This document shows positions 5,008 to 61,391 of a stretch of DNA of 64,000 bases, one piece after another. The DNA is from Chloranthus sessilifolius. Lineage: Eukaryota > Streptophyta > Magnoliopsida > Chloranthales > Chloranthaceae. Every line of letters starts with the position of its first letter. The stretch's first letter is position 1. The stretch spans positions 70,947,604 through 71,011,603 of the forward strand of contig CM037587.1 in the NCBI GenBank assembly GCA_021018995.1. The letters run 5' to 3'. Made by a program: the position numbers and the translations under genes. The notes under the pieces were generated by a model. It was not told the DNA's origin and did no database searches. It was given only the letters and a program-made list of their open reading frames with translations.

Positions 5008-7165
5008 TGTGACAGCCCAAATTTTGGCGCCCCGAAATCTGTGCCATCAGCACGTTCCTTAAGGCCGTGCCCAAGAAACCTTTACGATACATTGGTATAT
5101 ACAAGCCAAAAATTGTAATTAGGGCGCACACATCTACTCTAAACGAGTTCTCATATATAAAAATAATTATGGTCTCTATAGGCAGTCCTTGTCCCATGCA
5201 AATTCATGGGCATAAGAACTTACCCAAACCATTAGTGATAATTGTTCATCCCAATGTTTTATCAAAAGCATACGATAATTAATTTCATTCAATAAAGAGG
5301 CTTGATATACTAAGTCGTGCCTAATACTCTCAACTCACTCTCAAAGTATGCAATGGATCTCCTAGAAGAATTCTTCAGGAGGAGGCTCGACCCCTCAGTG
5401 GGTACGTAGTCTGAATCCCCTGGATCAAAGTCTCTAGAAATCCTTGCTGCCACTAGTCCTAGACCTGCGACGTATAGTCTAAGGGGTGAGCTACATCCTA
5501 GCTCAATAGGGAAACAAAGTGAACATATAGATTAAATCTCACATATATGTTAGCAGTTTTGAAAGTACAATTTACTAGATATCACTTTTAAGCAGAACCA
5601 TTGATATAACTGGAATAACTAAAATGGATACAACTGATTTCCTTTCATGGTGTTGTTTGTTCTCATCTTACTGGTTTAGTTATGAATTCGGCCTAATCAC
5701 TTAAACCTTTAACTTAAATAATCCCCAAGCAATATAGCATCGAGCCCCGATGGAATACCTACCATCGTCGTCTACTAGACAACTGTTATATGTATTCCCT
5801 AGGAATACTGCCCAGGCCCCTTTCTCATGGTGGTGGGGTTTATTATCAAATCTACATCCTTAAGATGTGCTATGAGTATACGGATTGGCCGCTGTACTGG
5901 TCACGGATATCCTGCCGCGTTAGTCGTGGGTATCCTGCCACGTCGGTGGGGTATTCTAATCAAACCTCAAATAACAAAAGTATCGATGTGCTTTACAGAT
6001 AGTTATTCACCGTGACTTGTGTTAATTTTTAGTACATTAGGCCTCATCATTATGCTTAGTTTCACGGTTCGTTTTCATCTGCATCCCTGGGATACTGTAG
6101 ATTTAATACATCATTTAGATGCCCACTTTACAATATTACATCCCCTGGGGACTTCATGATTTCACCTTGAAGCTTATGCACACACCCTTTTTCATAAAGA
6201 TCACATAATACTCAACTTTTTAATTGAAATATACTGCATATATGGGTTGACGAAATAAAGTACATGTTTCAAGAATATTCCCTACCTCAACGCAATTCCA
6301 ATGCACACTTTCTCGTAGAGGTTTACACTTCACGATCTTACGCCAAACCTACATTTCATGTATTTAGAATATGCTTAGAAAGGTTACTAGAATCATTGGA
6401 GCACATAGCCTCCTTGTTTCTGCACCAATAATTTCAAGAACTGTGCGGTGCCTCATGGCAACACAACCGCCGGCGGTCACTTGACCTCGCTTAAGCAGTT
6501 AAATCGAGATCGCTCGAGCGGTTAAAGCGAGCCGCCTGAAGCTTTACTGGAGGCCTCGCTCGAGCGAGCTTCCCCCTTTATTTTGGGTCTCGCTCGAGCG
6601 AGCCCAGAACTAAATTTTTTTATAATTTTCCCTCGCTCGAGCGAGGAGCGATAATTTTTACTCCTCGATCTGTTCGAGAAAACTATTTCTCCCTTCATTC
6701 GGACCTTAATATCATTAAAAATCATTCAATCAACATCCTATACATTATTTAAAACACGCCTAAGCATTTATCATGCATTTAACATACCTCCAACGATAGG
6801 TCTCGCACAAGTTCGATCCACGATTTAAAACTCTATTAGACGAAAAGATCTCTAAGGTTCCTTATCCAACCTTTTTCTCTAGATCTTCCACCGATTTAAG
6901 TCCCAACAAAACCCTAGCTCTTCTTTACTAGGCTCTTTTCTTTCTCTCTATTTCTCCTTCTCTCTATTTAGGCTAGAGTTAAGTCACGTATGGGGCTCTT
7001 CTCTCCTCTCTCTTTCACTTATATACATATACGTTAGGGAAATACTGGTATGTTTCCCACATACACTCATAGTGTATACATGTTAATTTTGGTTCCCTTA
7101 TGAATCACACATACATGTGTATGGTGCATGAAGTGCACGGTTCCCAAAAATCTGGGGTTGTGACA
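5008..7165 (-). repeat. Element B 3' LTR
   Basis: 2,158 bp, a diverged copy of 13709-15901. Its palindromic array (6484-6650) is shorter than in the 5' LTR, having lost several CTCGCTCGAGCGAG units, and many remaining CpGs differ by transitions. A minus-strand TATA-like TATATAAG lies at 7018-7025, about 140 bp inside the LTR. Confidence 0.95.
6484..6650. repeat. CTCGAGCG palindromic array in B 3' LTR
   Basis: Several copies of CTCGCTCGAGCGAG and close variants (CGCTCGAGCGG, CTCGCTTAAG) are separated by 15-40 bp of unrelated sequence. The same word recurs at 15152-15384 in the other LTR and at 9092-9309 inside the element. Confidence 0.9.
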
Positions 7166-7202
7166 ATCACCCCAACTTATAAGATTTTCGTCCTCGAAAA
7201 TC
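7166..7202 (-). promoter_or_regulatory. Element B polypurine tract and conserved upstream motif
   Basis: On the minus strand TTTTCGAGGACGAAAAT is followed by TTATAAGTTGGGGTGAT and then the LTR start TGTCACA. The GGGG-containing purine stretch next to the LTR is the plus-strand primer. The TTTCGAGGACGAAA word also precedes the PPT of element A and, from general knowledge, is typical of Tekay-type chromoviruses. Confidence 0.8.
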
Positions 7203-7587
7203 GACGATACACGTGTAACTAGGTACTACTACTACTACCAGGCCATGGATAGGCTAGCTTCATACATCATCAGGTAATTGAACAAATGGTCCAATCTCGC
7301 AGCGACTTGCGTTAAACCATGTCAACTTATACCCATATAGTCGAGAATGATGATGATATCAAGAATAATGATGATACGATTTTATACTATCAGGTATTTT
7401 CATCAACATGACACTAATTGATATAATAACACTAAAGAGCTATACAATCATTACGATAGCCATCCACAAAAATTGTGACATTCATGTCACGATAGTTTGT
7501 AAATAAACTGTCCAAAAACCACCTCACCATGAAATGTCTTAACAAAATATTACATTTCCATTTTCCACAAGAAAAATATATAACTAC

Positions 7588-8876
7588 CTAGTCATCGTCC
7601 TCCTCATACTCGTCGTCGTCGCCGGAGCCATCATCATCCCCGTAGTCCTCATCATCCTCATTCTCGTCAACCACCCTGGAGGTAGTGGTACCAGTTATAG
7701 CGCTCCTCGTAGCAGGGTCCGAGCTAGATGCTCCAAAAATAGCATCTCTCATAGCACCGACGGGCTGCATGTATGACTGCGGGTAAGCCTAGTCCATGAG
7801 GTTTATGAGTAGTGCCTCCTGAAACCTCTGATGCAATCTGATCTCCCGCCCCTGCTGAAGGATCTCCCGCATCATGGCAGTGTCGGTAGTGTGTATGGGC
7901 TGTGAAAATGAGGTAGAGGGAGTGGTAGGTCCTACCGGCGCTTGATGCATGGCTTGTCGGGAGACTTGACGATCTCTTTTCTTGTTGACGCTAGTTTGAA
8001 GGCTCTTCAGGTTTCGGCTCCAGTCTTGGGCCAAATAGGGGACGACGTTATCGGTGAGGAATAACTCGTCGGTCCAAATCTTGAATCCTCCCTTTCCATT
8101 TCATGAGTCGAGGAGTCGGGAAATCAACCGAGCATAAGGTAGTCGATTGATGGGTGGAGGAACAGCACCTCTTACATTCCGTTTATAGGCATGTGCCATG
8201 CCTTTTATGATAACCATAGGCGCGTTAATCCACCTATTATGGAATGCAGTGTGTAAAGCCCGCAGAATGCTTCACGACGTTCTTGGTCATGGCCGGTTGG
8301 GTGTAGATTGTTCTTAAAAATAACATCCAGAAGCCACATACGTGGCGGTAGCTGTGATCGGGTGATAGATTGACCCGAAGCGGACGTACTGCTGGTGATG
8401 TCGAAAATAATCTTTGGGAATTCCACGTTCCCAGAAAAAGGTGGTAGGATGACTGGGCTAGGGGAATAGGTGTGGGGACATTTCATAACCGATGAAATTT
8501 CGGCACAGTTAAAGATTAATTCCTTTCCATCGATCGTGACGAGGATGGCGTCCTCATTCACGTTCATATTAAGGGTTTGGTAAAATAGTTTCACAGGTCT
8601 CGAGTAATACCGATCTCCGAACGGCGTAAGTAAAGTTCTAAGGTTGTTGTTGGTGAGGAAGTTCGATGTCCATTGGGTGGACGTTGGATCCCCAAAACAA
8701 GAGGGATGTATATCCCATTCGGTTTCAAATATTTTGGCCCCCCACCAATCGTCTAGTGTGATTGGGGTGGGGGATGGGTTTGGTGATGGTTGTGAAGCTT
8801 GCGGCGCTTTGTTGCGTGCCGACGGCGATCGAATCGCCATCTGCTTCTTAGGTTGTGGATTAGGGCTTGAAGCCAT
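7588..8876 (-). pseudogene. Element B accessory ORF, 'putative plant transposon protein'-like
   Basis: Starts at 8876 with a Pro/Ser/Lys-rich N-terminus (MASSPNPQPKKQMAIRSP). The conserved core follows, including LPPRMWLLDVIFK, LHPTGHDQERRE and, after a frameshift near 8235, INAPMVI and LPYARLISRLL. Stops interrupt near 8100 and 7790. The C-terminus (to 7588) is a long Asp/Glu run with EDDEDYGDDD. The core matches the extra ORFs of A, C and D position by position. It lies between the chromodomain and the 3' LTR, on the sense strand, with its own array and TATA upstream. No protease, polymerase or membrane segment is visible. Resemblance to PF20167/PF03078-type families is from memory, not a search; function unknown. 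Confidence 0.75.
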
Positions 8877-9078
8877 TAGGTGTCTAAAAAGCTTTTCAAA
8901 ATAAGGAAGAAAATTCGGAAAGGAGTAGATTTTACCTAAAAGAAAGTTTTTAACGGATCGGATCGTCTAAATCTGGATCGAATCGATCGGAAAAAGATTG
9001 AAGATGACAAGCCCTAAACCCTCGTTCAGCTCCAACTCCTCGCTTGAAGATGAAATGGGTGTTTTGTCTTCCGTCTGC

Positions 9079-9309
9079 TATATATAGTCCATCCTCGCTT
9101 GAGCGGTCGTTAGTTATTGCTCGAGCGAGCCCAGGACGCTAACTGGTATAATTTATGGCCTCGCTCGAGCGGTTGATAAAGCTCGCTTGAGCGACAAATA
9201 GACCTCGGGCGAGAGGTCACTACTCCTTGCTCGAGCGATGCCAGAAACTTCCTGTTTATTATTTCATGTGACTCGTGCGAGCGAGTATAATTTATCGCTC
9301 GAGCGAGCC
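9079..9309 (-). promoter_or_regulatory. Candidate internal promoter of B accessory ORF: CTCGAGCG array plus TATA box
   Basis: Between the chromodomain stop (9547) and the accessory start (8876), positions 9092-9309 hold about seven CTCGAGCGAG-like words (GCTCGAGCGAG, CTCGCTCGAGCGG, GCTCGCTTGAGCG). Directly downstream on the minus strand is TATATATA at 9079-9086, 203 bp before the ATG. The word is the same as in this element's LTRs. The arrangement looks like a second promoter; activity is inferred. Confidence 0.6.
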
Positions 9310-9546
9310 AAACGACGTTGTTCTTGTTCTCACAAGTTCACATCTTCACTAGTCTCTCCCAGCATTTAGAACACCACTCACGCATGACTATGTATACTAT
9401 TCATTAAAAATTTAGTTCTCATGAACAAATTTGTTCAGGCAAAATAATTTATTATGCTCGAATTGTAATTGCACTCATTTGGTTCGTTTTAACTATAAAT
9501 TGATAGTCTAAATTTTTTTTACACTTTATCATAATAATAAAGAAAA

Positions 9547-12500
9547 CTAGCTAGTGTCCTTGAACAAATTGGGGTATTGTTCTTTGACGTTAGCCTCTCG
9601 TTCCCACGTTGCTTCTTCGACCGGATGGTTCTTCCATCGGACAAGCATTAAGGGAATAACCTTTGTTCACAACACTTGTTCCTTTCGATCTAAAAGTTCC
9701 ACCGGCTCTTCAATCATGGTCATATCCTCATGCATTTCGAATGATTGGCCGCTCAGCACGTGATCAGGGTCATTGAGATACTTCCTGAGCATAGATACGT
9801 GGAATACATTGTGTACCTGATCAAACAATGGTGGCAATCCAATGCCGTAGGCTACTTCCCCTACTCGACCCAAAACTTCAAACGGTCCAAGGTAGCGGGG
9901 ACTTAGCTTCCCTCTTTTTCCGAACCTCATCACACCCTTCATAGGCGATACTTTCACGAAAACATGTTCTCCCACCTTAAAGTCCACGCTCATCCACTTG
10001 ATGTCGGCGTAGCTTTTCTATCTGCTTTGAGCCGCCTTTAGTCTTTCCCTGATTATGCGGACAATAGCTGCGTTATCTTCAAGTAGCTCGAGTCCCAAAA
10101 CAAATTTCTCGCCAATTTCCTCCCAATTGATTGGCGATTTGCATCGTCTTCCATACAAGGCTTCATACGATGCCATCCCGATGTTCGTCTGATAGCTATT
10201 GTTATATGCGAACTCAATCAATGGTAGATGTTGGTCCCACGATCCTTGTAATTCCAACATACATGCCCTAAGCATGTCTTCAATGATTTGATTGACCCTC
10301 TCAGTCTGTCCGTCGGTTTGTGGGTGGAACGTCATACTGAAATCTAGTCTCATTCCCATTCCTTCTTGAAATTTCTTCCAAAACTTTGATGTATATAATG
10401 GGTCACGGTCTGAAACAATGCTACTCGAAACCCCATGTAAACGGACAATCTCTTTCACATAGAGCTCTGCCAGTCTTCCCGCAGTGTACATCATGTTGTA
10501 AGGCAAGAAGTGCGCTGACTTAGTCAATCGATCGACTACTACCCAAATGGCATTATACTTCTTTGCAGTTCGCAGTAGACCGACTATGAAGTCCATGGAG
10601 ATAGATTCCCACTTCCATTCCGGTATGGGTAGAGGCTGTAATAGGCCTGCGGGGTGTCTATGATCGATCTTCACTTGTTGGCACGTCAAACACCGTGACA
10701 CATACTCTGCTACATCTTGTTTCAAGCCTCTCCACCAGTAATTCTTTTTCAAATCTTGATACATCTTTGTGCTTCCCGAGTGGATAGCATAGCTTGACTT
10801 GTGAGATTCATCAAGAATTGTTCGTCGAAGATTGGCATTGTCTGGAATGCAAAGTCGGCCCTTGAACACTAAGGAACCATCCTCCTTGATCAAAAACTCA
10901 GATGTAATACCTTCAGTTACATCTTGACATATCTTGGTTAGAATTGGGTCTTTCATCTGTAGTTCTCGTATGTGTTCGAATATCACTGTTTTCACTGATA
11001 TGTTGGCTAAGAAGGCTCCTGTGGCTTGTGGCTGTATGTCTCCTCCACATAGTGCTAAATCCTCCAACAGTTTCCATCGATGTATACCCAAAATTAGGCT
11101 AGCCAACTGAGCTGAACTCTTTCGACTCAAGGCATCGGCCACTATGTTAGCTTTGCCTGGATGGTACTGTATGGAACAGTCGTAGTCCTTGAGGAATTCC
11201 ATCCATCTGCGCTGCCTCATATTTAGTTCCTTCTGTGTAAACAGATATCTGAGGCTCTTATGGTCAGTGAAGATTTCAAACGTTTCTCCGTATAAATAAT
11301 GTCGCCATATCTTCAATGCGAATATGACCGCTGCTAGTTCCAGATCATGTGTTGGGTAGTTCTTCTCGTGCTCTTTCAACTGTCTTGACCGGTAAGCTAT
11401 TGCCTTTTTATATTGATTTAGTACACAACCCAACCCATTATACGAAGCATCACTATAGACCGCGAATCCTCCACTGCCTGATGGAATGGCTAACACTAGA
11501 GCTGAGCTGAGTCTCTTCTTGAGTTCTTGAAAACTCTTCTCACACACCTCACTCCACTCAAATCTCGAATCCTTTCTTGTAAGCCTCGTAAGAGGTCCTG
11601 ATATTTTTGAAAACCCCTCGATGAAATGTTGATAATAACCTGCCAGTCCGAGGAAACTTCGGACGTCTGTCACGGTCTTTGGTTGCTCCCAGTTCACTAT
11701 TGCCTCGATCTTAGCGGGATCTACTGTGACACCATGCTTTGAGAAGACGTGTCCCAAAAAGCTAACCTCTTCTAGCCAGAACTCACATTTGCTGAGCTTG
11801 GCGTACAATTGGTGTTCACGTAAGGTTTGTAGAGCGACTCGTAAGTGTTCTTCATGCTCCGTCTTCGATTTTGAGTAAATCAGGATGTCATCAACAAACA
11901 TGACAACGCAGGAGTCTAGGTGTGGTTTAAACACCTGATTCATTAAGTCCATAAACGACGTCGGTGCATTCGTCAATCCGAATGGCATCACTAAAAATTC
12001 ATAATGTCCATACCATGTTCTAAATGCTGTTTTCTGAATGTCCTCAGCCTTTACTCTTAACTGATGGTATCCAGATCTCAAATCGATCTTGGAAAAGTAC
12101 TTCGCTCCTTGCAACTAATCAAACAAGTCATCTATTCTTGGCAACGGATATCGATTCTTCACAGTGAGTTTGTTCAACTGACGGTAGTCAATGCACAACC
12201 GCATCGACCCATCTTTCTTTTTCACAAATAGAACTGGTGCTCCCCATGGAGAAATGCTTGGTCTTATGAATCCTTTATCCATGAGCTCTTGCAACTATTC
12301 TTTCAATTCTTTCAACTCTGCAGGAGCCATCCTGTAAGGTGCCTTTGAAATAGGCTCCGTTCCTGGTGCATAGTCGATAGCGAATTCCACTTCTCTTTCT
12401 GGGGGTAATCCTAGTAATTCTTCTGGAAATACGTCTGCGAATTCTCTCACTACTGCTATCTCGAAGATAATATTCTTTTCTTCTTTATCTTCTTTCAGAA

Positions 12501-12600
12501 ATGCCAAATAACCACTACACCCCTTTCTGATTAAACGTTCAGCTCTGACTGTCGAGATGAGTGGCACCTGTGTCGATCTCTCTCCTCGAAATCAAAACGA
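9547..12600 (-). pseudogene. pol: Element B pol: RT, RNase H, integrase and chromodomain, with four stops
   Basis: The frame enters with a linker common to chromoviruses ([27 protein letters not shown]). RT carries [14 protein letters not shown], the MPFGLTNAP motif and the FVDDILIYS catalytic box. RNase H shows [12 protein letters not shown] and TDHKSLRYL. Integrase has the HHCC region ending CLTCQQVK, then [16 protein letters not shown] and GQTERVNQ, giving the DDE residues. The distal part has KWMSVDFKVGEHVFVKV and a chromodomain reading VRWKNHPVEEATWE. In-frame stops fall near 12295, 12115, 10015 and just before the chromodomain near 9664; otherwise the frame is intact. It replicated the element through reverse transcription and targeted integration; this copy cannot make one polyprotein. 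Confidence 0.95.
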
Positions 12601-12640
12601 TCTCCTTGTGTTAGGTCAGAAATGCCAAATAACCACTACA
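12495..12640. repeat. 25-bp exact direct repeat at the gag/pol deletion
   Basis: The same 25 bases, beginning TCAGAAATGCCAAATAACC, occur at 12495-12519 inside pol and at 12616-12640 at the broken end of gag. The zinc knuckle and protease expected here are missing, so the repeat marks a rearrangement junction, probably template switching during reverse transcription. Confidence 0.85.
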
Positions 12641-12643
12641 AAC

Positions 12644-13617
12644 CTCGGTTTCTTATGTACTGATTCATAACTCCCCGTCCTGCTTGGATCTATGCTTCCT
12701 CTTCCCTGTTGTTCCCTCCGACGATATCGGTTATTATTTTCTTTTTCGACTACTAATGCCTCACTCATTACTTCTCTATAGGTCTTCAGCTAGAAGGGCG
12801 CAACCCCTCCTCAGATGTCCGACCTTAAACCCTGTTGGAACCTCTTCGCTTTCATCACGTCAGAAATTACGTAGTCTGGAGCGAAGCGAGCCAGTCTCAT
12901 AAATTCTACTTCGTACTCTCTCACGGTCATCCTTCCTTGCATTAGTTGCAAAAATTGGGTCTCCATCTGATTTCTCACAACCTCCGAAAAATATTGCTTA
13001 TTGAACTCTTCTATGAATTCATCCCAAGTCCAGGGCATATATGGAGTTTCTTGTGCTCTAGTTCACGATACGAATTTCCACTAAGGTCCAGCTTCTCCAT
13101 CTAGCATATATGCTGCCCAACGAACGCTCTCGTCCTCTGTGCATGTCAGTACGCTAAACACCTCCATTTCACCCAGCCAATTTTTGGCTACCATGGTGTC
13201 TGCCTGCCCTGAAAAGTTAGGTCTCATCCTCCTGAATTCGGTAAATGTTGAAGCCACTGGTGGTGTAGGTCCTACTGGAGGTGTGGGTGTCCGTTGTGGT
13301 TCTGGGGCTGCATGTGCTGCCAAGGATGCTGCTTGTTGTGCCATGGCAGTTGCCATTGTCTCCATTGTATGCATCATCCTCTGAAGCTCCTCTCTTTCTT
13401 CATTTCTCTCCCTCACTCTATCTTGTTCTCTCTGATTTCGATCCTGATGATCTCGATCCTAATCTTCTGCTTGATTTTGGTTTTCTCCGTGGCCACTGCC
13501 CTCGGGAATCTCCCTGTTTCCTAATGGTACCCTGTTTGTAGGCGAGACGAAACCATCTCTACTGCGTAAATTCCTATCATGACCACCCCTGGGTCAGCCT
13601 CTTCCTCTAAGAAACAT
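12644..13617 (-). pseudogene. gag: Element B gag, C-terminus deleted
   Basis: Begins at the ATG at 13617 (MFLRGRG), 79 bp inside the PBS edge. It is Arg/Glu-rich at first (REQDRVRERNEEREELQRMM), with an Ala/Gln-rich segment. The capsid-like retrotransposon gag domain contains VAKNWLGEMEVF, ESVRWAAYMLDGEA, PYMPWTWDEFIEEF and VREYEVEFMRLARFAP. Stops occur at about 13596, 13460, 13081 and near 12805. After a KKPRF motif the reading is lost; no CCHC zinc knuckle or DTGA/DSGA protease box is present. In intact relatives gag packages the RNA. The equivalent gag of element A keeps the knuckle region, which shows what B has lost. Confidence 0.9.
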
Positions 13618-13695
13618 AACGGTCTGCATGAGAAACCACAATTTTGTTAGCAGAAGTCCCTATATTCTGGCGATTGCCAAAACTAAAAAGAAAGG

Positions 13696-13708
13696 CTTTG
13701 ATACCAAC
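13696..13708 (-). promoter_or_regulatory. Element B primer-binding site (tRNA-iMet type)
   Basis: On the minus strand the LTR end CTGTCACA is followed by GTTGGTATCAAAGCC, close to the TGGTATCAGAGC complement of initiator methionine tRNA used by many plant Ty3/gypsy elements. One mismatch (A for G) is shared with element A. Confidence 0.9.
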
Positions 13709-15901
13709 TGTGACAGCCCGAATTTTGGTGCCCCGAAATCTGTGCCATCAGCACGACCCTCAAGGCCATGCCCAAGAAACCTTTACGATACATTGGTATA
13801 TACAAGCCAAAAATTGTAATTAGGGCGCACACATCTACTCTAAATGAGTTCTCATATATAAAAATAATTATGGTCTCTAAAGGCAGTCCTTGTCCCATGC
13901 CAATTCATGGGCATTAGAACTTACCCAAACCATTAGTGATAATTGTTCATCCCAATGTTTTATCAAAAGCATATGATAATTAATTTCATTCAATAAAGAG
14001 GCTTGATATACCAAGCCGTGCCTAATACTCTCAACTCACTCTCAAAGTACGCAATGGGTCTCCTAGAAGAATTCTTCAGGAGGAGGCTCTGACTCCTCAG
14101 TGGGTACGTAGTCTGAATCCCCTGGATCAAAGTCTCTAGAAATCCTTGCTGCCGCTAGTCCTGGACCTGCGACGTATAGTCTAAGGGGTGAGCTACATCC
14201 TAGCTCAATAGGGAAACAAAGTGAACATATAGATTAAATCTCACATATATGTTAGCAGTTTTGAAAGCACAATTTACTAGATATCACTTTTAAACATAAC
14301 CATTGATATAACTGGAATAACTAAAATGAATACAGCTGATTTCCTTTCATGGTGTTGTTTGTTCTCATGATACTGGTTTAGTTATGAATTCGGCCTAATC
14401 ACTTAAACCTTTAACTTAAATAATTCCCGAGCAATATAGCATCGAGCCCCGATGGAATACCCACCATCGTCTTCTACTAGACAATTGTTATATGTATTCC
14501 CTAGGAATACTGCCCAGGCCCCTTTCTCATGGTGGCAGGGTCTATTATCAAATCTACATCCCTGGGATGTGCTATAAGTATACGAATTGGCCGCCATACC
14601 GGTCACGGATATCCTGCAGCGTCAGTCATGGGTATCCCGCCACGTCGATGGGGTATTCTAATCAAACCTCAAATAACAAAAGTATCGATGTGCTTTACAG
14701 ATAGTTATTCACCGTGACTTGTGTTAATTTTTAGTACATTAGGCCTCATCATTATGCTTAGTTTCACGGTTCATTTTCATCTGCATCCCTGTGATACTGC
14801 AGATTTAATACATCATTTAGATGCCCACCTTACAATATTACATCCCCTGGGGACTTCATGATTTCACCTTGAAGCTTACACACACACCCTTTTTCATAAA
14901 GATCACACAATACTCAACTTTTTAATTGAAATATACTGCATATATGGGTTGACGAAATAAAGTACATGTTTCAAGAATATTCCCTACCTCAACGCAATTC
15001 CAATGCACACTTTCTCCTAGAGGTTTACACTTTATGATCTTACGCCAAACCTACATTTCATGTATTTAGAATATGCTTAGAAAGGTTACTGGAATCATTG
15101 GAGCACATAGCCTCCTTGTTTCTACACCAATAATTTCAAGAACTGTGTGGTGCCTCGCGCGAGCGAGCACAACCCCTCGCTCGAGCAGTCACTTGACCTT
15201 GCTCGAGCGGTCACTTGACCTCGCTCGAGCGGTTAAAGCGAGCCGCCTGAAGCTTTACTGGAGGCCTCGCTCGAGCGAGCTTCCCCCTTTATTTTGGGTC
15301 TCGCTCAAGCGAGCACAGAACTAAATTTTTTTATAATTTGTCCTCGCTCGAGCTATCCATTTAGACCGCTCGAGCGAGGAGCGATAATTTTTATTCCTCG
15401 ATCTATTCGAGAAAACTATTTCTCCCTTCATTCGGACCTTAATATCATTAAAAATCATTCAATCAACATCCTATACATTATTTAAAACATGCCTAAGCAT
15501 TTATCATGCATTTAACATACCTCCAATGATAGGTCTCGCGCAAGTTCGATCCACGATTCAAAACTCTATTAGACAAAATGATCTCTAAGGTTCCTTATCC
15601 AACCTTTTTCTCCAGATCTTCCACCGATTTAAGTCCCTAAAAAACCCTAGCTCTTCTTTACTAGGCTCTTCTTTTCTTTTTCCCTATTTCTCCTTCTCTC
15701 TATTAAGGCTAGAATTAAGTTACATATGGGGCTCTTCTCTCCTCTCTCTTTCACTTATATACATATACGTTAGGGAAATACTGGTGTGTTTCCCACATAG
15801 ACACATTGTGTATACATGTTAGTTTTGGTTCCCTTGTGAATCACACATACATATGTATGGTGCATGATGTGCACGGTTCCCAAAAATCTGGGGTTGTGAC
15901 A
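13709..15901 (-). repeat. Element B 5' LTR
   Basis: 2,193 bp, diverged copy of 5008-7165. It contains the conserved chromovirus LTR core (minus strand GTTAGCTC-like block with ACTATACGTC near 14170-14195) and the fuller CTCGAGCG array at 15152-15384. TG...CA termini are intact. Confidence 0.95.
15152..15384. repeat. CTCGAGCG palindromic array in B 5' LTR
   Basis: About nine words: CTCGCGCGAGCGAG, CTCGCTCGAGCAG, GCTCGAGCGG, CTCGCTCGAGCGG, CTCGCTCGAGCGAG and variants, spaced irregularly. It is longer than the homologous stretch in the 3' LTR. The half-site CTCGC/GCGAG also occurs alone. Confidence 0.92.
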
Positions 15902-19172: not shown

Positions 19173-19190
19173 GTTGGTATCAAAGCATGA
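19173..19190 (+). promoter_or_regulatory. Element A primer-binding site (tRNA-iMet type)
   Basis: GTTGGTATCAAAGCATGAC follows the LTR end directly; TGGTATCAAAGC matches the initiator-Met complement TGGTATCAGAGC with one difference, the same as in B. Confidence 0.9.
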
Positions 19191-19282
19191 CTCTAGGTTC
19201 AAAGTCTTAGGACTAAGGGCAAGATTATCTTTACAATCAATACTGATCTATTATTACTGTTTTTCAATACTGACAGATCAGC

Positions 19283-21257: not shown

Positions 21258-21294
21258 AAACTTTATTTATTTATTTTTTGGTAAATTGCACTAG

Positions 21295-47221: not shown

Positions 47222-47810
47222 ATTTTCTTATTATTTGATCTGCACAACTCTTAAATAGATAAGGATCTTCCCAGATGAAATGTTTAACCTTTGAGAAGAA
47301 AAGATCTTTATCCATTCTATTCCAATGTTGAGGAATTCTTCCAGTAGCCAAAAAGTTGATTATGTTTGCAAACCAAGGAGTGTGAACACTAATGGCAAAG
47401 AGTTGTTCATCAGGGAAAGATTCATTGATAGGCAGCCTATCAATCTCAGCAGTTAAAATTCTAGACAGGTGATCAGCCACCACATTCTCCACCCCCTTTT
47501 TATCTTTGATCTGTAAATCAAATTCCTGTAATAGGAGAATCCACCTGATTAATCTTGGTTTGGTGTCCTTCTTAGACAGAAGGTATTTCAAAGCAGAGTG
47601 GTCAGTGAACACCACTATTTGTGAACCCAAGACATATGACCTAAATTTCTCTAAAGCAAAAACAATTGCTAGCAGCTCCTTCTCAGTTGTTGTGTAATTG
47701 AGTTGTGCATCGATCATTGATCTTCTGGCATAAGCTATGACATGAGGCAGCTTTTCTTTCTCGTCAGGACAGCTCCCAAAGCATAATCGATGCATCACAC
47801 ATCGATTCAA
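47178..47810 (-). pseudogene. pol: Element D RNase H
   Basis: IAYARRSMIDAQLNYTTTEK, ELLAIVFALEKFRSYVLGS, VVFTDHSALKYLLSKKD, RLIRWILLLQEFDLQIKDKK and NVVADHLSRI are the standard Athila RNase H motifs. The N-terminal catalytic DASD-like segment is broken by a frame change near 47810. It overlaps the integrase frame by 44 bp because of another shift. Confidence 0.9.
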
Positions 47811-49000: not shown

Positions 49001-49169
49001 AGGTACCTTAGCTGTTTGTGGAAGGGGGAAAGTAGCAGGTTTCTAAGAAGAGAAAGTTGCTGATTGGTTATGAGTTCCTTGCACAACATTTATTTCCTCA
49101 AAATTTGAGATACAAACTGTTTCTTCTTCAAAATTTTCCCAAACATCTTTAACATTTGTGGTGAAATCT

Positions 49170-49694
49170 TCACTGCAGAAACTGTTGTAAAGTCCCTTCT
49201 ACAAGTTCATCCAATAGATCAACATGAAAACATTCTTCAGAGTTGAATTGAGGCTGTGTGACTGCATTATAAACATTTAATTTTACCTTCATGTTTCCAA
49301 AAGAGACTTCCATAATACCAGACCTGCATTGAATGCAAGCATTTGCTGTAGCCAGGAATGGTCTTCCCAAAATGACAGGGATGGAAGTTTTGCTTTTGGT
49401 AGGTTCCATGTCCAAGACTAGAAAATCAGCAGGATAGAAAAATTTATCTACTCCCACCAATACATCCTCAATCATCCCAACTGGCTTCCTTTCAGATCTG
49501 TCTGCTAGTTGAAACACCACATGAGTGGGTTTTAATTCTCTCAAACCTAGTTTCTCATATACAGAATATGGAAGTAGGTTGACACTAGCACCGAGATCTA
49601 ATAAAGCCTTTTCAATGGTATGTTCCCCAATAATGCAAGGGATTGTGGGGATTCCAGGATCTTGAAGTTTAGGAGGTGTGGCAATGGATAACAC
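49170..49694 (-). pseudogene. pol: Element D aspartic protease
   Basis: 174 open codons. The active-site box is ALLDLGASVNLLPYSVYEKL (D-L-G-A-S), a common Athila variant of DTGAS. VILGRPFLATANA is the flap-distal ILGRPF motif. It processed the gag-pol polyprotein. Open in itself, but fused to broken gag and RT on either side. Confidence 0.92.
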
Positions 49695-49833
49695 CTAATT
49701 AATTCTTTCCACAGCAAAGACCTTCTTGGGCAACTGTATCCTAGACTGTCTTTTGTGAGTGCAAACATCTTTCAAAAATTTTTCATATGCTGGAATTTCA
49801 TATACTGGAATTTGTTTGATTGCCTCACCACTT

Positions 49834-51540
49834 TCAAAGATTTATCTTGACTTGCTTGAAAGTCTCCATCATTTCTTCTATTTTTGTGTTCCCTTTATCA
49901 AAAGGGGATACAGATTTCATTGCATGAGGAAATGGTAAATGAGGAACTAGTCCTTCATCTATAGCTTTGGAAGCATTTTCATAAACTTTTTGAATTTTTT
50001 GTTTTTCATTTTTTTGATTTTTCTGAGGTCCATCAGCACCCTCACTGCTATCATTCTGCTGCTCTTGCTGCATATCTTTATTATTTTCCTCATTTTTTTC
50101 TTCTTCAGTACCCACTTTGTTATTTATAATTCTTCCACTTCTCAAAGTGGTGACAGTTTTTACTTCTTCATGTGAATTAGAAGCTTCTCCAACCATGAAC
50201 TGTCCTTTGGGATTGTTCAAAGGTTGGCTGGGTAACTTTCCTTCCTCTCTTTTTGCCAAAGTATTTGAAAGCTGTCCCAATGTTTCTTCAATCTTCTTTA
50301 TGCTCTGGCTGTGAAAATTCATAGTCTGAGTTAAAGATCCTAAATTCAGGAGTGAATTTAGGACTTGATCTTCAAAAGAAGGGGACCTGGAAGGGTTTGA
50401 ATCAAGCGCATCACGCATGTTGTTGTGGAATGGAATGGGTCAAAAATTTGGTTTGGCATAAAATTTGATAAAGGTGTGCAATTTGAAAGGCATTTGGTTC
50501 TTTGGTTGTTGTTGTGCATTGTGATTGATAATTCCTTGGTTCCACCTCAAATTGGGGTGCCCTCTCCATGGATATTCGTTTGATCATCAAATGATTGAAT
50601 GATTGAGCAGCATGAGCTTGTTCCACCATTAAATCTGGGAAGCTAGTGCGGCAAGAGGACATTGGTCAATTGAATGAGTAGGGGACCGCATATCGACATG
50701 CCTCCTCTACTCTTGCAACATTTAGATTTTTAAGTGAGTCCATCAATCTATCAAACTTTGTGGTTAACTTGTCCATCTTTCTTTCCAACTCATTCACCTC
50801 ATAAATCTTCCCTTTGGTGGGTTGCTGATTGTTCAACCTAGCAGGATTTTCAATATCTCTTGACAAAGATTCCTGTTGAGTTGAGTTTTCACCAATTACT
50901 TCAAATAAGTCCCAAACCTCCTCAACTGTTTTTTGCAAGTAAGTACCTCCACAGGAGGCATCCACCATATTTCTGCCTTTTTGATCAATTCCTTGATAGA
51001 AGCTTTGAACCAGCTGCCATCTGGGAATTTGATGATGAGGACATTGCCTTAAAAGTTCCTTAAATTGTTCCCATGCTTCATGGAAAGTTTCAGTTGAGTT
51101 TTGTGAGAAAGAAATGATACTTTGTCTCAATTGGCTTGTTTTAGACATTGGGAAATATTTGGCTAAAAATTGACACTGCAAATCATTCCAAGAAGTGATA
51201 CTATTTGGTGCTAACATAGATAACCATGCTCTAGCTTTATCCTTTAATAAAAAAGGAAAAAGCCTAAGCTTGGTTGCCTCGGAAAGAATCGGCTATATTT
51301 GAATGTGGTGCAAAGAGCCAAGAATTCATCCACATGTTTGTATGGATCTTCCTTACTCAACCCATGGAAGGAAGGAAGCATTTGGATAGTTGATGATTTG
51401 ATCTCATAATTTCCTTCAACAGTAGGAAATTGAATGCAAAAGGGAGAATTGTAAGCACTAGGTGCAAAGTAATCCCTCAAAAGTCGAGGTTCTTCACCCA
51501 TAGTAGCAGAATTCTGTGTTGTTTGTTTGGTTCGTAGTAG
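49834..51540 (-). pseudogene. gag: Element D gag, frameshifted, zinc knuckle lost
   Basis: Starts with MGEEPRLLRDYFAPSAYNS at 51501 or with MFGRRTL slightly upstream. IQMLPSFHGLSKEDPYKHVD is shared with C. A shift near 51290 moves to the frame reading FLAKYFPMSKTSQLR, WQLVQSFYQGIDQKGRNM and VDASCGGTYLQK. Then a stop near 50666 removes the CX2CX4HX4C knuckle seen in C. The C-terminal part (SIKKIEETLGQLSNTLAKRE, TVTTLRSGRIINNK) ends at 49834. The TLRSGR motif marks the gag-protease linker of Athila. Confidence 0.9.
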
Positions 51541-51775
51541 CCTTTCAACTTCTAAATTCAGTGGGACAATCTCAAGGTTGAGAGTCCTCCTACCAAACAT
51601 ACAACTCAGACAAAAAATCTGATTATTCACAGTAAACCTTCAGAATTCCTTTTTAAGTAGTTTCCCTTCTTCAAAAATTGGATATGAATAACTGCACAGG
51701 TATAAACAATAGAATAGTTTAGTAACGATATAAAAAGTAAAAGTGAAACTTAGGTCTACCTATTTTAGAACAAAT

Positions 51776-51799
51776 TCCCCGACAGCGGCGCCAAAAACT
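51776..51799 (-). promoter_or_regulatory. Element D primer-binding site (tRNA-Asp type)
   Basis: Minus strand AAGTTTT then TGGCGCCGCTGTCGGGGA (51776-51793), complement of tRNA-Asp with two changes relative to C's PBS. Confidence 0.95.
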
Positions 51800-53670
51800 T
51801 GTTGTTGGTTCTTAGTGTACTTGATTTATGTGTGTTTTGAAAATAGGTTTGCAACTGCTAAATTATAATGAATCTAGAATTTTAAAAAGAGTAAAGAAAT
51901 ATCAGCACAGGTAGAAGTGAATTATCTTGCAAGGTCAAGGCCAATTGTAACAAGTTTTAAATGTAAGTGAGTGAAAGATCGTCCACAGAGAATTTGTCTA
52001 AAATGCAAGATAAACCTCCAGATCTGAGCTACCAGATCTGGCCTCTTATCCTATCTAGAAAGCACATAAGATGGCGAGGTTGAATTTGTCACATTAACTA
52101 AATGATAAAAAGTAAAAGTTAAACTAAATGATCCAGATCCGAGTTGGGGGAGCGTTTGAGGTAAACTTATAAAAAATGGAGAAGTAATATCTAACTTTGA
52201 TTTGGTCCTTGAAATCTAATGAGAATGACTGCAGCTCAACTGAGAGATGATCCAATCTTCATCTGGCTACAAGCGCAGATGTAAGAGAAATAAATCTAAT
52301 TCAAGGATTAGGTTTAAGCTTATGGCTATGGTCTGTCCACTTTAATGGCCACAAACCACCCAATAGTCTTGAATCCAAATCCTTAATCTAGATCAAGAAA
52401 CATCACTACAAATGCCGTGAGAGACTAGGTTACAAACACTAACTCTCACAGGATTAATGAATTAAGGGAAATTGCATGAAAAACAGTGAATCTAAAGGAG
52501 TCTAATGCAATAAGGAGATCAGAGGGAACCCTTAACATGAGTCCAATGGAGAATGCATTTCTGACAACCTTTTCAAATTCACCATTACAATTACAGAACA
52601 CAGCTTAAACAGCTCTCAGATTTGTAGTCTTGAATATAACTCTCCTTTGAATTACAGAAGTATCTCACAGCTCTCAATTGCAAGTAAAAAGTGAGGCTAT
52701 TACAGGGATTTTAGACAAACTATCTGATTTGGAAATGGGGGATTAGGAATGAAACTCAAAATCTGGATGCCCAAATTAGGCAAATGGTTCGTCTATTTAT
52801 AGTTTTCCCTAAGTCCAGCTCAGATGTGTATCAACCAATCAGAAGTGCTCAGATCTGTATTGACCAATGGTAGTCGAGCACGAGGATCCAGATCTGTTCT
52901 GGCCAATCAGAATTCCTTGATCTGGTTCAGCCAATCAGGTGAAAAAGGCATCGATTCTGTTATGCATTTTGAAAGTCTGTTAGAGTTTCTAGAAGTTCCC
53001 GCCAAGTTATTTCATCTCTGGGTGCTCACGTGGGGTGGAATATGCCTTCGCTTTATGCTTAGAATCCTCTGAAATGTCCCTAGGTTTTTAAATGCATTGG
53101 GCCGTGTGAAACAGATTACCGAATTGCCCTTGCAAAAGCTGGGAACCTCCAGAATACCTTTTCGCAAAGCTTAGGGGGCTTTTTGCAAGGTGTTGTAACT
53201 GCTGAAGCTCTTTTCACAATGTTCTGGTTCTGTTCGAATTGAGTTTTCTTCTTTTCGAAAAGGTAAATCATCTCTTCGAAGAGTTCAGATGCTCTTCGAA
53301 AGCTAAGCCTGGAGTTTTTGTTCTTTTCGCAGAGTTTCAGGTTCTTTGCGAACAGTTCAGGTTCTTTGCGAAAAGTACTCTGTAGTGCATTTTTCTGTTC
53401 GAATTGCTCCATACTTCTTTTCTGGGTTGAGACCAGGTCTTTGCCTCTTCAATTCAGACCTTTCAATAGCTAGTGAGGTTGTTTCTTCTCTTTCTTCCTT
53501 TGGATTGACATGGATTGTCATCTTTTTGGCACTTTTAAGCTGCTTTTATGGTTAAGCCTGTCTTTATTGTTAGCTGCAACACAAGTACTTAAAACACTTA
53601 TTTAGTTCTCTCAAAGGTCTATCAAGACTCAAGTTCAGGGGTGAAAAATGGTATTTTTCAGTTCTCAACA
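51800..53670 (-). repeat. Element D 5' LTR
   Basis: 1,871 bp; array at 53157-53406; TATA CTATAAATAG at 52793-52802 on the minus strand; TGTTG...CAACA ends. Differs from the 3' LTR only at scattered positions. Confidence 0.96.
53157..53406. repeat. TTCGAA/TTCGC array in D 5' LTR
   Basis: Same order of words as at 40656-40905, with a few changes (CTTTTCACAATG for CTTTTCGCAATG, TTTTTGCAAGG for TTTTCACAAGG), mostly at CpG. Confidence 0.93.
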
Positions 53671-54546: not shown

Positions 54547-57038
54547 TGTTAAGACCTGAAAAGTACCACTTTTCACCCCTTAACTTAACCTCTGATTAGA
54601 CCCTTAGCCATCTAATAAGTTCTTGTTAAGTGTTTTATATAGGTAATAATCAGTAGTGAAACCAGGCCAGGAATCCTGCTAAGGAGCCTATTTTGGCATC
54701 AGAAGTCCCTCAGAAGGATGGACTCTGAATCCAGACCTGGAATGAGCCTCGTGCATCCAACTGAGCCTCCCAAGACTTTACAACAACTACTCGCGCAGCT
54801 CTCGCGAAGCTCAAGAGTAGAACACATCGTGCAGTCTCGCGCAATTCAAAGCAGACCTCTCTCAACCTCGCGCAGTTCGCTAAGAATGGCTGAGGAGAGA
54901 GAGCTTCAGGAGACTTCTCGCATAGCTGTCGCGTAGTGGCCGCGGGATGCAATTATCAGAAGAGAACTCCTCGCGCAGTTCTCGCGCCATTCAAGAAGAA
55001 AGCATCCTTCCAAAGAAGGAGCCATCCTTGCGAAGATTAATCAAGACATGAAACCTCGCGTAGTTCAGAACTCATTAAAGCCTCGCGAGGAAACTCGCAA
55101 AGTCCATTGAAGATAAGTGCTCGAGAAGTTCTCGCGCTATTCAAATCTGTCCTCGCGAAGATCAACCCAGCGATCGCGCAGCTACCTCGCGACTGCTTGA
55201 ACTCCAACCCCGCGACATCTAAGGCTTTGATGTCTACTCAACCTCGCGACTGCCTGAAGAGAAAACTAAGGCAACCTCGTGATGGTTGAAGCTTTAATAT
55301 CAAATCATCCTCATGAAGAGCAAGAGCTACCATGCGACAAGTCTGGGAAATAATGGCTACCTAGCGAAGCTCTGAACTTCAACTTCCATCTCTTCAGCAG
55401 AGGACCTTCTGGGAATTTCCAGCGATTAGGGCACACACTCCCACGCTCAAATCTCCGTGCACGTGCCCTAAGGCATCCAAGGATCACTATTCGGCCACGT
55501 GGCATCGTTAAAAATTAGGGTTTCCTAACCCTAATGCGCCGCCACACTACTACTATATAAACCCATACTTAGCCTAGGTTTAGACACCCTGGAATATCGG
55601 GGAACACATCTCATTTCTTGGAGACTTGATCTGAGATCATTTTTCTTTTCTTTTTGTAGCTGTAAGTAGTTTTCTTCTTTTTTTTCCTTCTCTCCATAGT
55701 CCAGCACTTGCTGGCTATGTCTTTGTATGCTTTTTGAACTAGATCAATGGAAGTTTTATAATAGGATTTGTACTCTGTAGGATTTGTGTTTGAATGTGAG
55801 ATGCTCTGTGCAAGGCTGCTGCCTTGTGATCTGCCATTGCTTTGGCTGTGATTCAAAGCAATGGAGGACTGATTCTAAGGGCCACTCAGATCCAAGTGAC
55901 CTGCGTGTCTGGGCTATCATGGTCATATACAGCCTTAGCCCCACCACAGGACCCACTAGATCTGAAATCCCCATAGGAGCTTGAGCTGGTAGCCTGGTGA
56001 CCATGGTGGTGGCAGCGATATTCTTATTTTGTCTTGGGCTCTGTGAGGAGGATTGCCTCTGGGATAGTCTGTGACCATTCAAGTGGACAGGTTATAGCCT
56101 TAGGGTGATTCTAATCCACCGATCCAAGATGGATCTTTCTTCTTTACACCTGAGCTTGTAGAAGCCTGGTGGGAGATTGTACAGAGGCAGACTCCCCTAT
56201 AATTGTATAGATCTGCTATCAGATGTTAGATCTGATCTGGTTATAGAGATTGTAGGCTTGTGACTGGACCATTGTAGCCTCACTCAAGCAATGGACAGCT
56301 AGATCGAAGGTTGTACTTAATCTCTTGTTGGTTCTATGTATCTGGGCTATCATGGTCCTATACAGCCTTAGCCCCACACATAGACTTTAGAGGTTGAGGT
56401 TCCCTATGGATTCTTGAGCTGGTAGCCTGGATGAAATAGTGCCTACAATGATTAACTTGTTTTGACCCATCCCTGGATTGTGGTTCCCCTATGGGATAGT
56501 CTGTGACCATTTGAGTGGACAGGTTATAACCTTAAGGGATTGAATCATGGCAGAGAGATGGGTTGAATCCTTTCTCCTCAATGGTGATAAAGTAGCCATT
56601 GGAAAGGATTTCTATAACATCATATCTGAATCTGAGTTACAAAGCTCCTTTGATCTAGGCTCAATAACATACTTCTCACCCTTTTATATTTATTTTCCAC
56701 ACTCCATCCATCCTCTCAACCCTTTCTGTAGTTTAGACATTAGGTTACCTTAGAATACCTAGAATAAGTGACCTTAAACTCCCCTCCTTTTTAGGACTGC
56801 CATATCTGTAGTCAGATCTGGAGGGACTACTAGAGATGGCTCCCTTGGAGCTGTAGATCACCTTTCCCTGTGGGACAAACTCTTACTTATCAAAACTTGC
56901 CACAATGGACCCTGTATCTTGCTGTCTAGGATTTCTTAGTTATGCTGATTCCATCCCTTGTTTTACTCTTTCTTTGATTTTTAAATTACTTTTACCACCA
57001 ACCAATAAAGTAAGCACACACTTAGAAATCCGCCAACA
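54547..57038 (+). repeat. Element C 3' LTR
   Basis: 2,492 bp. CTCGCG array at 54748-55370, TATA box at 55554-55561. At many array words where the 5' LTR has CA or TG, this copy keeps CG. Confidence 0.96.
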
Positions 57039-58386: not shown

Positions 58387-59998
58387 TGTAGACACCCAAA
58401 TTTGGCCCAATGTCCGATCGAAACATATTTCAAGAGAGGGGCATTTTTTGAGCTTTTGATGGCATGTATGGAACCCTTAGGAATTACCCCAAACCTTCAG
58501 GAATCACCCTAGATCCCTTCGGAACCTATCCCGAACCTTTAGAAAATAGTCCCGACCCTTAGAACCCATTCCCAACCCTAAACCTAACCTTCCTGGATAG
58601 TGGATGAGGAAGGGTGCACCGGAATTGGCTACGACCCTCTACGACAATCAAGTCCCATATCATTGAAGAATAGAGGTCATCAGCTTTCCAAGGGTCTAAG
58701 AATCGGCCCAATCGGAGGTCGACATCAAAAGATATAGCAAACCAAGCCCGGAGGGCATAAATGTAAATACATGGGGGGCCCTTAGGGACTTGGTGCAACT
58801 AATAGTTGCGCTAGGCCATTTCTCCACAGAAATGGCATGGCGCATCTAATAGTTGCGCCAACAATAAACTTTGCCTGGCGCAACTAATAGTTGTGCCAGA
58901 TTTAAAAGTGGGGCCCACCCTCGCGAGGCAACTTCCAGCACTATTCATTACTGTTTTACTGTACATTTGCCTGACACAACTATTAGTTGCGCCAGGCATA
59001 TAAACATAACTATTGGTTTTTACCCTGAAAATCATAATTGGGGTTTGACTTGTTGACCATCTTGACCCTTAGGGTGTGTTTTGCTAGTTCTGTTGCACCC
59101 TTTTAAAGTCTATTTGCACCCCTTTAAGTGGCTTAAGGCCTTCCCCCATCATCCACCATTGGAGGACCTTCCCACACATTTCAATGCTCTAAAAACCCAA
59201 GGAAAACTTAGATTGCCCATTACCTAATTGCTAATCCAATTAGGACTTTAACCCCTCACTAATCCTCCCTTCCTCTCTAAATAAAGAGTCACCCCTCTTG
59301 CTTAGGGGTTGAGAATTTTTCTTAAGAGAGAAAGAGCTCCAAGTGAGAAGTTCTTCCTCCCTTTGGTGCACTATTTTCACCTAAAATCCAAAATTCAAAA
59401 ACCCTTCCCAAGCTTGCGCTTACACTCAAAACCCTTAGCCTAGGTGTGTGTGATCCCCTAGCCTCTCTTCTCCATCTCCTAGCTAGTAGGCCTTAGTGGT
59501 TAGAACCCCTTTTTCCACCATTCAAGCCTCCAAAAGCTCATCAAAAGCAAGTCAAGCAAGGCTCCTCTACGGTGCTACAAGGGCTCTGGCTCTCCCATTT
59601 CTTCTCCTATCTCTTTCTAGTTCCCACCATCCTCCCATTTGTGCCATTACGCCGCTGACCTTTCGGTAGGAACAGAGGGGCACAAATAGGATTCTAAGCC
59701 CTTTTGGGCAAGAGAAAGCTATTTTCTTTTTCTTTTACTTCATTTATTTTTGACCATTAGTAGAAACCGTGTTAAGCGGGTTGATCGGGTGCCTAACACC
59801 TTCCCGATCGATAACCGAAGCCCCTACCCAAGAGCCTTTGGTGTGGATCGGATTCAGAGTCATATTTTTAGCACTTCAGTGCTCATAAAAATGAACTAGG
59901 TATCTCGGGACACTGAAAGCTTAGGGTGGCGACTCTATATTTTTTCGTTAGAGAGTGCATCGTCGCGACGGGATCGTCCCGACTCCCACGGTTGCACA
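58387..59998 (+). repeat. Element E 5' LTR
   Basis: 1,612 bp, TG...CA. Palindromic array at 58790-58996, TATA-like TATAAACA at 58999-59006 immediately after it. No second copy in the window, so the end is set by the PBS and the CA dinucleotide. Confidence 0.82.
58790..59006 (+). promoter_or_regulatory. GCGCAACTA palindrome array plus TATA in E LTR
   Basis: Four long palindromes built on GCGCAACTAATAGTTGCGC: at 58791 (GTGCAACTAATAGTTGCGC), 58840 (GCGCATCTAATAGTTGCGC), 58878 (GCGCAACTAATAGTTGTGC) and 58974 (ACACAACTATTAGTTGCGC). TATAAACA follows the last one directly. Confidence 0.85.
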
Positions 59999-60000
59999 GA

Positions 60001-60018
60001 TGGCGACTCTGCTGGGGA
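60001..60018 (+). promoter_or_regulatory. Element E primer-binding site (tRNA-Arg type)
   Basis: TGGCGACTCTGCTGGGGA, two bases after the LTR end. The plant tRNA-Arg complement is TGGCGACTCCACTGGG, so two internal mismatches. Confidence 0.75.
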
Positions 60019-61391
60019 GTAGCTAGTAGAGCTTCCCCTTAAACTTGGCCTTGTAATTTTTTATTTTTACTAACATGTTATTGCTGTTTTTTTAGTTTAT
60101 TTTTACTTTTTTTTTTAACTCTCCCCTCCGATTAAGTCATTTTACTTACCCCTACTTTTCCATCATTTATGAGCCTTAACCGATTGGCGGGCCTACTTGC
60201 GCAATGGTCCTTTATTTTCCTTACTTTTTCATCATTTTAGTGCCTTAGCCGATTGGCAGGCCTACTAGGGCATTGTCTTTTAATTCCCTTAATTTTTCAT
60301 CATTTAAAGTTTCTTAGCCTATTGGCGAGCCTACTTGTGCACTCATATCCCAATAGTGGACGCCGGCCCGTAGGGGCGGCACGAGATCATCACTCCCGGT
60401 CTTTGAACTAAAGAAAACTTTCAAAAAAAAGAGAAAAGCTTTGAAAAAAATTAAAATTGAACCAAGCTAGGGAGCTTAATTAATCTGTTTTTACGGGATA
60501 GATTTTTTAAAAGGGTTGGGTTTAGGCACACATACAAACACTCGAGTCTTAGTATGGCGGCAACCCCTAGTGGTGATGATCTAGAAAAGTCCCAGCCCAC
60601 CTAGTATCTGAGAAGGCGCTCACGCCGGAGGTATATCGGGTGGGTTCCCATCCCAAAAAGCTTAAAACCCTTCGGGAGCGCGCTAACGAGTTATACCAGA
60701 CTCAAACCCTTTAGGTGCGGTCAGGAGAGAATCGATCATCAAAAACTGCTCAGTTCTCGAAAGCCTAGCTTCCACAAAAACCAAAAAAAGAGACTCATTT
60801 CAGGATCACATCATCTTTTTCTTCGAGGACCAGCTTTTTTCTGGCGCAAGTATTAGTTAGCGATTAAACACTGGAATTTTATTAGTTGCGCCAGCTTTAA
60901 AAACCAAAATTTTACCTTGGCGCAACTAATAGTTGCGCCAGTGTAAAATCAGTCCTCTGCAACTTGGGCGCATGTATTAGTTGCGTCAGGTTTGTTTTGC
61001 ACTACACCAACCCGAATTTGTGGCCTTCTTCATATCCCGAGTTCCCCAATTAGTGTGCTTAGTGCCTTGTTTGGGCCCCGCCATCTCCAACACCCAATAC
61101 GCCCCCGTCGGTCAAAAGAGGGCAACTTCTTTTTGGCTCATTCTAGGGGATCGGGTTGTTCGCCTCAATTTTCGTGCCTTCAATAGATCAAAGGTTCTCC
61201 TTCGATTCTTCCAAAGTGCATCGGAATCGTCGCCGCTGGTCTTGAAGTAAGGTATGAGAGCCACCCGAAAAGGGAGTTCCAAGGCCTCGGAACCTTTGTT
61301 TTTCAAAAAAAATTTCAAATTTTTTTTTTTTTAATAAATATATATATATATATATAACCCAAAAATATATATAGTTTGTGGTGCCGGCACA
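60019..61391 (+). other. Element E leader with a second palindrome array
   Basis: Noncoding; includes three copies of a CCGATTGGCGGGCCTACT-like word at 60180, 60248 and 60313 spaced about 65 bp. The array at 60841-60989 repeats the LTR palindrome: GGCGCAAGTATTAGTTAGCG, TTAGTTGCGCCAG, GGCGCAACTAATAGTTGCGC and GGCGCATGTATTAGTTGCG. A T-run and (AT)n lie at 61319-61359, just before the first ORF. Confidence 0.7.

Follow-up and report, generated by a model that had tools for sequence, protein, structure and literature searches.

What could be the role of the arrays of short CG-containing words that recur in the long terminal repeats (LTRs) and again in the interior of LTR retrotransposons of Chloranthus sessilifolius? 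The question is raised by a stretch of 64,000 nucleotides (assembly GCA_021018995.1, contig CM037587.1, forward-strand positions 70,947,604 to 71,011,603), called here the window, which holds one copy of each of five such families, A to E. An earlier note on this DNA had described the arrays as one common plan. We find that each of the five families carries its own word array both in the LTR and in the interior, and that in all four families whose 3' region lies in the window the internal array stands ahead of one common accessory gene. The best overall explanation, to which we give an even chance, is that the arrays would be operators bound by the accessory protein of the family itself.

Word Arrays in the LTR and in the Interior

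The five elements are the following (positions are those of the window).

16959 to 26175, plus strand: element A, LTRs at 16959-19178 and 23924-26175 (pair identity 90.6%)
5008 to 15901, minus strand: element B, LTRs at 13709-15901 (5') and 5008-7165 (3') (pair identity 93.7%)
31533 to 57038, plus strand: element C, LTRs at 31533-34020 and 54547-57038 (pair identity 94.2%), with D nested at 39301-53670
39301 to 53670, minus strand: element D, LTRs at 51800-53670 (5') and 39301-41169 (3') (pair identity 97.4%)
58390 to 64000, plus strand: element E, cut by the window end, with a single LTR in the window at about 58390-59999

Reading all 15 intervals claimed as arrays showed the described words to be present in every one. 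A scan made blind to these words (8-mers on either strand occurring at least 4 times per 300 bp, simple repeats removed) returned 14 word clusters, against 2 in total across 30 dinucleotide shuffles. Of the 14 clusters, 11 coincide at least partly with claimed arrays; 10 of the 15 intervals are reached in this way, and those of the A right LTR, the C left LTR, the D right LTR and both C internal intervals are missed. The other three clusters lie outside (9422-9669, 28170-28538 and 62159-62565).

Matrices were trained on one LTR array, and the threshold was set so as to allow 2 hits in 64 kb of shuffled sequence. Their hits are given with the arrays below; hits elsewhere number 1, 4, 1, 0 and 0 for A to E. 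Where no strand is given, none was assigned.

17731 to 17886: A left LTR array, half-sites ATTCGA and TCGAAT, 7 hits, also a blind cluster
24784 to 24888: A right LTR array, shorter, holding 4 of the 5 right-LTR hits, the fifth lying outside the array
21464 to 21646: A internal array, 6 hits, supported by matrix, blind scan and window-rank test
15152 to 15384: B 5' LTR array, word CTCGCTCGAGCGAG, 8 hits
6484 to 6650: B 3' LTR array, 4 hits
9092 to 9309: B internal array, 8 hits
31728 to 32346, plus strand: C left LTR array, CTCGCGAAGTTC-like and one-way, 16 hits
54748 to 55370, plus strand: C right LTR array, 16 hits, two blind clusters
36251 to 36440: C internal array, 1 hit at the strict threshold, scoring above all 2316 other windows
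53157 to 53406: D 5' LTR array, word CTTTTCGAAAAG, 9 hits
40656 to 40905: D 3' LTR array, 9 hits
45737 to 46040: D internal array, 8 hits, supported by blind scan and window-rank test
58790 to 58996: E LTR array, word GGCGCAACTAATAGTTGCGCC, 4 hits (the right LTR lies outside the window)
60841 to 60989: E internal array, located within the 5' leader some 840 bp beyond the LTR, 3 hits, supported by blind scan and window-rank test

The LTR-trained matrices give nearly no cross-family matches, and the words are thus family-specific. In a window-rank test with the same matrices, the internal array of the family was the top 250-bp window in five of five families, and none of the 2316 to 2462 other windows scored as high; the weakest case is C (58 versus 31 for the best other window), judged on 36251-36440, the second claimed interval, 37820-37870, being too small to judge. 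In the reverse direction, with internal-trained matrices that had only 3 (C) and 2 (E) training sites, the LTR arrays ranked first in all five. It should be emphasized that the window-rank test was seeded with the words of the earlier note and is not blind, whereas the 8-mer scan is. The double occurrence and the difference of words between families, both put forward in that note, are therefore confirmed.

The internal arrays are not misplaced LTR fragments: self-blastn lists no match between LTR and internal array for B, C, D and E, and the one found in A (88 bp at 84%) is mostly the array itself. Except in A, the LTR and internal arrays have a common word and different spacers. C and D have LTR ends, a leader-side stretch and gag similarity in common (self-blastn) and are, to judge from these sequences, sister families with different words. 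Because C and D are related, the five families do not make five independent cases.

An Accessory Gene Downstream of the Internal Array in Four Families

In A, B, C and D, a sense accessory gene, new here and missed by the earlier note, lies behind the internal array and before the 3' LTR. From the end of the array to its start there are 258 bp in A, 216 bp in B, 245 bp in C and 350 bp in D, the starts of A and D being deduced since their frames are broken.

21904 to 23216, plus strand: A accessory gene, start placed at 21904, in separate pieces divided by stops and frame changes, matching B and D
8205 to 8966, minus strand: first piece of the B accessory gene, ATG at 8876, the match extending in further pieces to about 7591, matching C and D
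36637 to 37821, plus strand: C accessory gene, ATG at 36685, split into the pieces 36637-37308 and 37309-37821
43038 to 45387, minus strand: D accessory region, pieces at 45238-45438 (basic start), 44384-45145 (core) and 43038-44237, start placed at 45387

Twelve matches between accessory pieces of different families are listed, nine of them with E below 0.001. The best are C-D (2e-19 and 3e-16), B-D (2e-12) and B-C (1e-7), followed by A-B (9e-7) and A-D (2e-5); A1-C1 (0.005), A3-B1 (0.95) and A3-C2 (5.4) are weak. On these comparisons, the accessory pieces are homologous across the four families. Matches to Transposase_32 (PF20167) are found in the D core (E=1.1e-7, 32.4 bits), in B (E=0.0062, 16.9 bits) and in C (E=0.011, 16.1 bits); since the curated cut-off is 45, the relatedness of the genes rests on the between-family matches. 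The first 30 residues are basic in all four proteins (net charge +5 in A, B and C, +9 in D), and the last 50 are acidic in A (-10) and B (-18).

These observations bear on a rival explanation, according to which host transcription factors of stress or development recognize the arrays as promoter elements, at the LTR and at an internal promoter alike, with no protein of the element involved. When compared with plant cis-element lists, the boxes of Sireviruses mainly correspond to stress-factor sites (Bousios et al. 2010, PMC2829016). Furthermore, the control regions of LTRs frequently consist of arrayed repeats, sometimes palindromic (PMC10760457). However, the five families have five words with almost no cross-hits, related C and D already differ, and the internal copy ahead of the same accessory gene in A to D is left unexplained. 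A single host factor for all families was rejected on the near-absence of cross-family matrix hits, and host factors in general seem to us a somewhat unlikely explanation.

Word Shape, CpG Content and Spacing

The words were initially described as palindromes with a CG core, which does not hold for every family. A strict inverted-repeat test (arms of 5+5, gap 0-6, z against shuffles) shows a clear excess in B (LTRs 6.3 and 6.0, internal 3.1) and a moderate one in A (LTRs 2.7 and 2.0) and E (LTR 3.1); an AT run exaggerates the internal values of these two, 12.6 and 5.4. The excess is not clear in C (LTRs 1.6 and 2.8, internal -0.4) or in D (LTRs 0.3 and -1.1, internal 1.1). The C word is mainly a one-way repeat, CTCGCG occurring 9 times forward and 0 times reverse in the left LTR array, and in A and E the CG is placed in the arms of the word and not in its core.

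Palindromic words raise the possibility that the arrays act as RNA, with transcript hairpins that aid the element or feed small-RNA silencing by the host, the latter as reported for the LTRs of maize Sireviruses. Folding z-scores (150-nt pieces against shuffles) are low in A (-5.0 and -6.4), B (-4.6 and -3.4), E (-8.8 and -6.2) and the D internal array (-4.1), and the palindromes of Sireviruses are small-RNA hotspots (PMC5311732, PMC10760457). However, the values for the D LTR (-0.2) and for C (-2.3 and -1.6) show that folding is not a common property, the C word is no palindrome, and hairpins result from palindromes anyway. A common hairpin role was rejected, C and the D LTR not folding markedly beyond shuffles, and we hold an action as RNA to be improbable.

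In all five families the arrays are CpG-richer than the rest of their own element. They hold 98 of 164 CpG in 12.9% of the element length in C, 33 of 133 in 5.6% in D, 62 of 397 in 5.7% in B, 25 of 245 in 4.8% in A and 14 of 150 in 6.3% in E. Between the LTR pairs of A to D, 28 of 99 CpG sites in arrays and 56 of 142 outside are changed from CG to TG or CA; this is suggestive of a lower CpG decay in arrays, in a small sample in which the A array is poorly aligned. The D site centres show a near-helical spacing of 10.40 bp, and 0 of 2000 jittered controls are as good.

Could the arrays be functionless slippage products in noncoding DNA, copied once from the LTR to the interior? In favour of this, Tandem Repeats Finder detects short tandem units over part of the array length, with units of 19 bp for A, 22-23 bp for B, and both 20 and 31 bp for D. 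Nevertheless, internal and LTR arrays share the word and not the spacers (A excepted), the position ahead of the accessory gene is the same in four of four families, and CpG is retained in CpG-poor elements, all of which makes this explanation very improbable.

Position Relative to Promoters

The distance from the start of the LTR to the beginning of its array is 195-772 bp in A to E, and the array is over before the middle of the LTR. A TATA box follows the array by 188 bp in the LTR of C and by 356 bp in that of D; it lies upstream of the array in B, as does a looser box, recognized by eye, in A. Because the likely LTR TATA precedes the array in A and B but follows it in C and D, the array can be said to be near the promoter, not always upstream of it. 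In the interior, TATATATA starts 6 bp downstream of the B array (9086, minus strand), the background rate of strict TATAWAW being about 1.17 per kb and strand.

Comparison with Known Systems

The earlier note knew of no named feature that matches the plan, but a named precedent exists. Sireviruses, which belong to Ty1/copia, carry palindromic CG-rich words, the "RM boxes", in the LTR and also upstream of ENV, in 9 of 9 elements with ENV and 0 of 4 without; of 79 internal boxes, 77 are upstream of ENV (PMC2829016). As in the families described here, the words are family-specific CG-containing dyads, are arrayed in the upper LTR half and are CG-rich compared with the element, and a second array directly precedes a gene that is located after pol and ahead of the 3' LTR (here in A to D). 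Several differences exist. The second array of E is in the 5' leader, the C word is one-way, and what follows the array is not ENV but an accessory gene resembling Transposase_32. The CGG-CCG signature is missing from the consensus words of all five families, as it is from the Sirevirus Tnd-1 (PMC2829016). Moreover, gag, protease and pol families of the Ty3/gypsy type are found among A, B and D, and gag in C; E has no Pfam match in the three pieces scanned.

The VANC proteins of VANDAL elements bind family-specific motif arrays in the noncoding DNA of their own elements (PMC5735166, PMC10398659). In the same way as here, each family has its own short noncoding word, the arrays come partly from tandem duplication, words change between related families, and a gene of the element adjoins one array (PMC5735166, PMC10398659). 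Unlike VANDALs, which are Mu-like, the elements of the window are retrotransposons, and both binding and demethylation are only putative for them. DUF1985 and DUF287 are absent from the accessory pieces in Pfam searches, three having Transposase_32 only and the fourth nothing up to E=10. A common origin with VANC, which helices, a beta hairpin and helices in both structural models might have suggested, is not used, the confidence of the models being too low.

Just outside element C lies a VANC-like gene: the open reading frame (ORF) at 30689-31423 (minus strand) matches DUF1985 (E=1.9e-15), has a sub-threshold match to the plant mobile domain, and matches the solved VANC21 structure (9lnj, E=5e-4).

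The 3' accessory ORF of sunflower Athila 14 (PMC11728184) resembles the gene described here in its sense orientation, its place before the 3' LTR, its Transposase_32-like core and its basic start, and its protein is predicted to be nuclear. However, the accessible text reports no word array there, and here the same gene is also present in the chromovirus-looking A and B. Accessory genes of Retand and Grande (TRP28, PF04195; PMC11963269, PMC7264820) likewise lie between pol and the 3' LTR with a suggested regulatory role, and Grande gene23 has its own promoter (PMC7264820), but they are antisense whereas those of A to D are sense; no PF04195 match was obtained in the pieces scanned. In the open-licence literature, we found no description of word arrays at both the LTR and an accessory gene in Ty3/gypsy elements.

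Proposed Mechanism

The arrays probably act as DNA operators, situated at the LTR promoter and at the promoter of the accessory gene. The likeliest binder would be the accessory protein of the family, working like VANC, and we consider that this could equally be right or wrong. In favour of the reading as a whole are arrays that are real and family-specific, their two positions, the homologous accessory pieces with their basic N-termini, the acidic tails of A and B, TATATATA in B, CpG richness, the spacing in D, the retention of gag, array and accessory gene in A and C, and the precedents of Sirevirus boxes and VANC. The element might then make a factor that targets the LTR and the gene of its own family and leaves other families untouched, the outcome being activation, or keeping LTR and gene unsilenced. 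Such a complete self-addressed module, in several lineages of Ty3/gypsy, is a tentative proposal that we think possible but doubtful. By analogy, the strongest outside support comes from the link of internal Sirevirus boxes with ENV.

Several points weigh against operators bound by an accessory protein. Each family is known from one copy, and E, whose 3' part lies beyond the window, has no accessory gene inside it. The Transposase_32 matches of B, C and D are below the Pfam cut-off, and the accessory pieces of A have no Pfam match. No acidic tail is present on the C-terminal pieces of C (+5) and D (+2). Comparison of the accessory pieces with VANC21/DUF1985 by hhalign gave a probability of 0.2%, no better than shuffled columns. 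AlphaFold models were too poor, with a mean predicted local distance difference test score of 38.4 for the D accessory core (4-row alignment) and 49.2 for the DUF1985 ORF of the window, and with these two low-confidence models Foldseek returned no match at E 0.001. As regards promoters, strict TATAWAW within 300 bp downstream of the internal array occurs only in B, looser ATATTTAAA-like AT boxes being found by the internal array of C and D and none in A, and the order of array and TATA in the LTR differs between A and B on one side and C and D on the other. Finally, site spacing has other periods in A (9.40), B (11.15) and E (9.55) and none in C (700 of 2000 jittered controls as good), and short tandem duplication explains part of it.

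Coding Content and Other Sequences of the Window

In Pfam searches, D encodes gag, protease, reverse transcriptase, RNase H and integrase, and B encodes gag, reverse transcriptase, RNase H, integrase and an SH3_Tf2-1 domain. A retains pieces of gag, a zf-CCHC zinc knuckle and RVP_2 protease; reverse transcriptase, RNase H and integrase were not found in its 21 sense stop-free pieces of at least 60 residues, all scanned. C retains gag (E=2e-24), and protease, reverse transcriptase, RNase H and integrase were not found in its 14 such pieces, again all scanned. In both, gag, the array and the accessory gene have been kept while reverse transcriptase and integrase are missing from the pieces scanned, an absence that may be due to chance deletion, each being known from one copy. 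No Pfam match was obtained in three pieces scanned of E. We take A and B to be chromoviruses and C and D to be Athila elements, from LTR ends and primer-binding sites and, for A, also from the type of protease, and E to be presumably Ogre-like, from its LTR start and primer-binding site; no chromodomain was seen in the pieces scanned. The earlier spread of the plan over chromovirus, Athila and Tat/Ogre-like lineages stands in that more than one Ty3/gypsy lineage is involved, the lineage names being assumed.

Other sequences resemble these elements. Positions 1-280 are 73% similar to the A LTR (25648-25812) and are a remnant of another such LTR. The blind cluster at 28170-28538 (GTTCAAG / AACTTGAA) lies near a stretch, 27964-28015, that is 84% like the A LTR, and may represent a sixth array, its CpG decayed, that belongs to an old LTR of a chromovirus. 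The cluster at 62159-62565 is a tandem repeat with a unit of about 24 bp within a proline-rich coding stretch of E, and that at 9422-9669, just upstream of the B internal array, consists of TGAACAAA four times.

Biological Significance

Even without any role of the protein, the presence of arrays both at the LTR and ahead of the accessory gene widens the Sirevirus plan to include Ty3/gypsy. The question can be directly tested, each family offering one protein and one short array with the other families as controls. If the self-addressed module is real, a family could turn itself on, or evade silencing, while leaving the others dormant, and a function would be found for the accessory genes of Athila-like elements, which have long lacked an explanation. 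What are called "envelope-like" genes, in such elements as well as in Sireviruses, would in that case be address-specific regulators and not envelopes. Sequence-addressed self-activation or anti-silencing, known in VANDAL DNA transposons, would also be widespread among the retrotransposons with which large plant genomes are filled.

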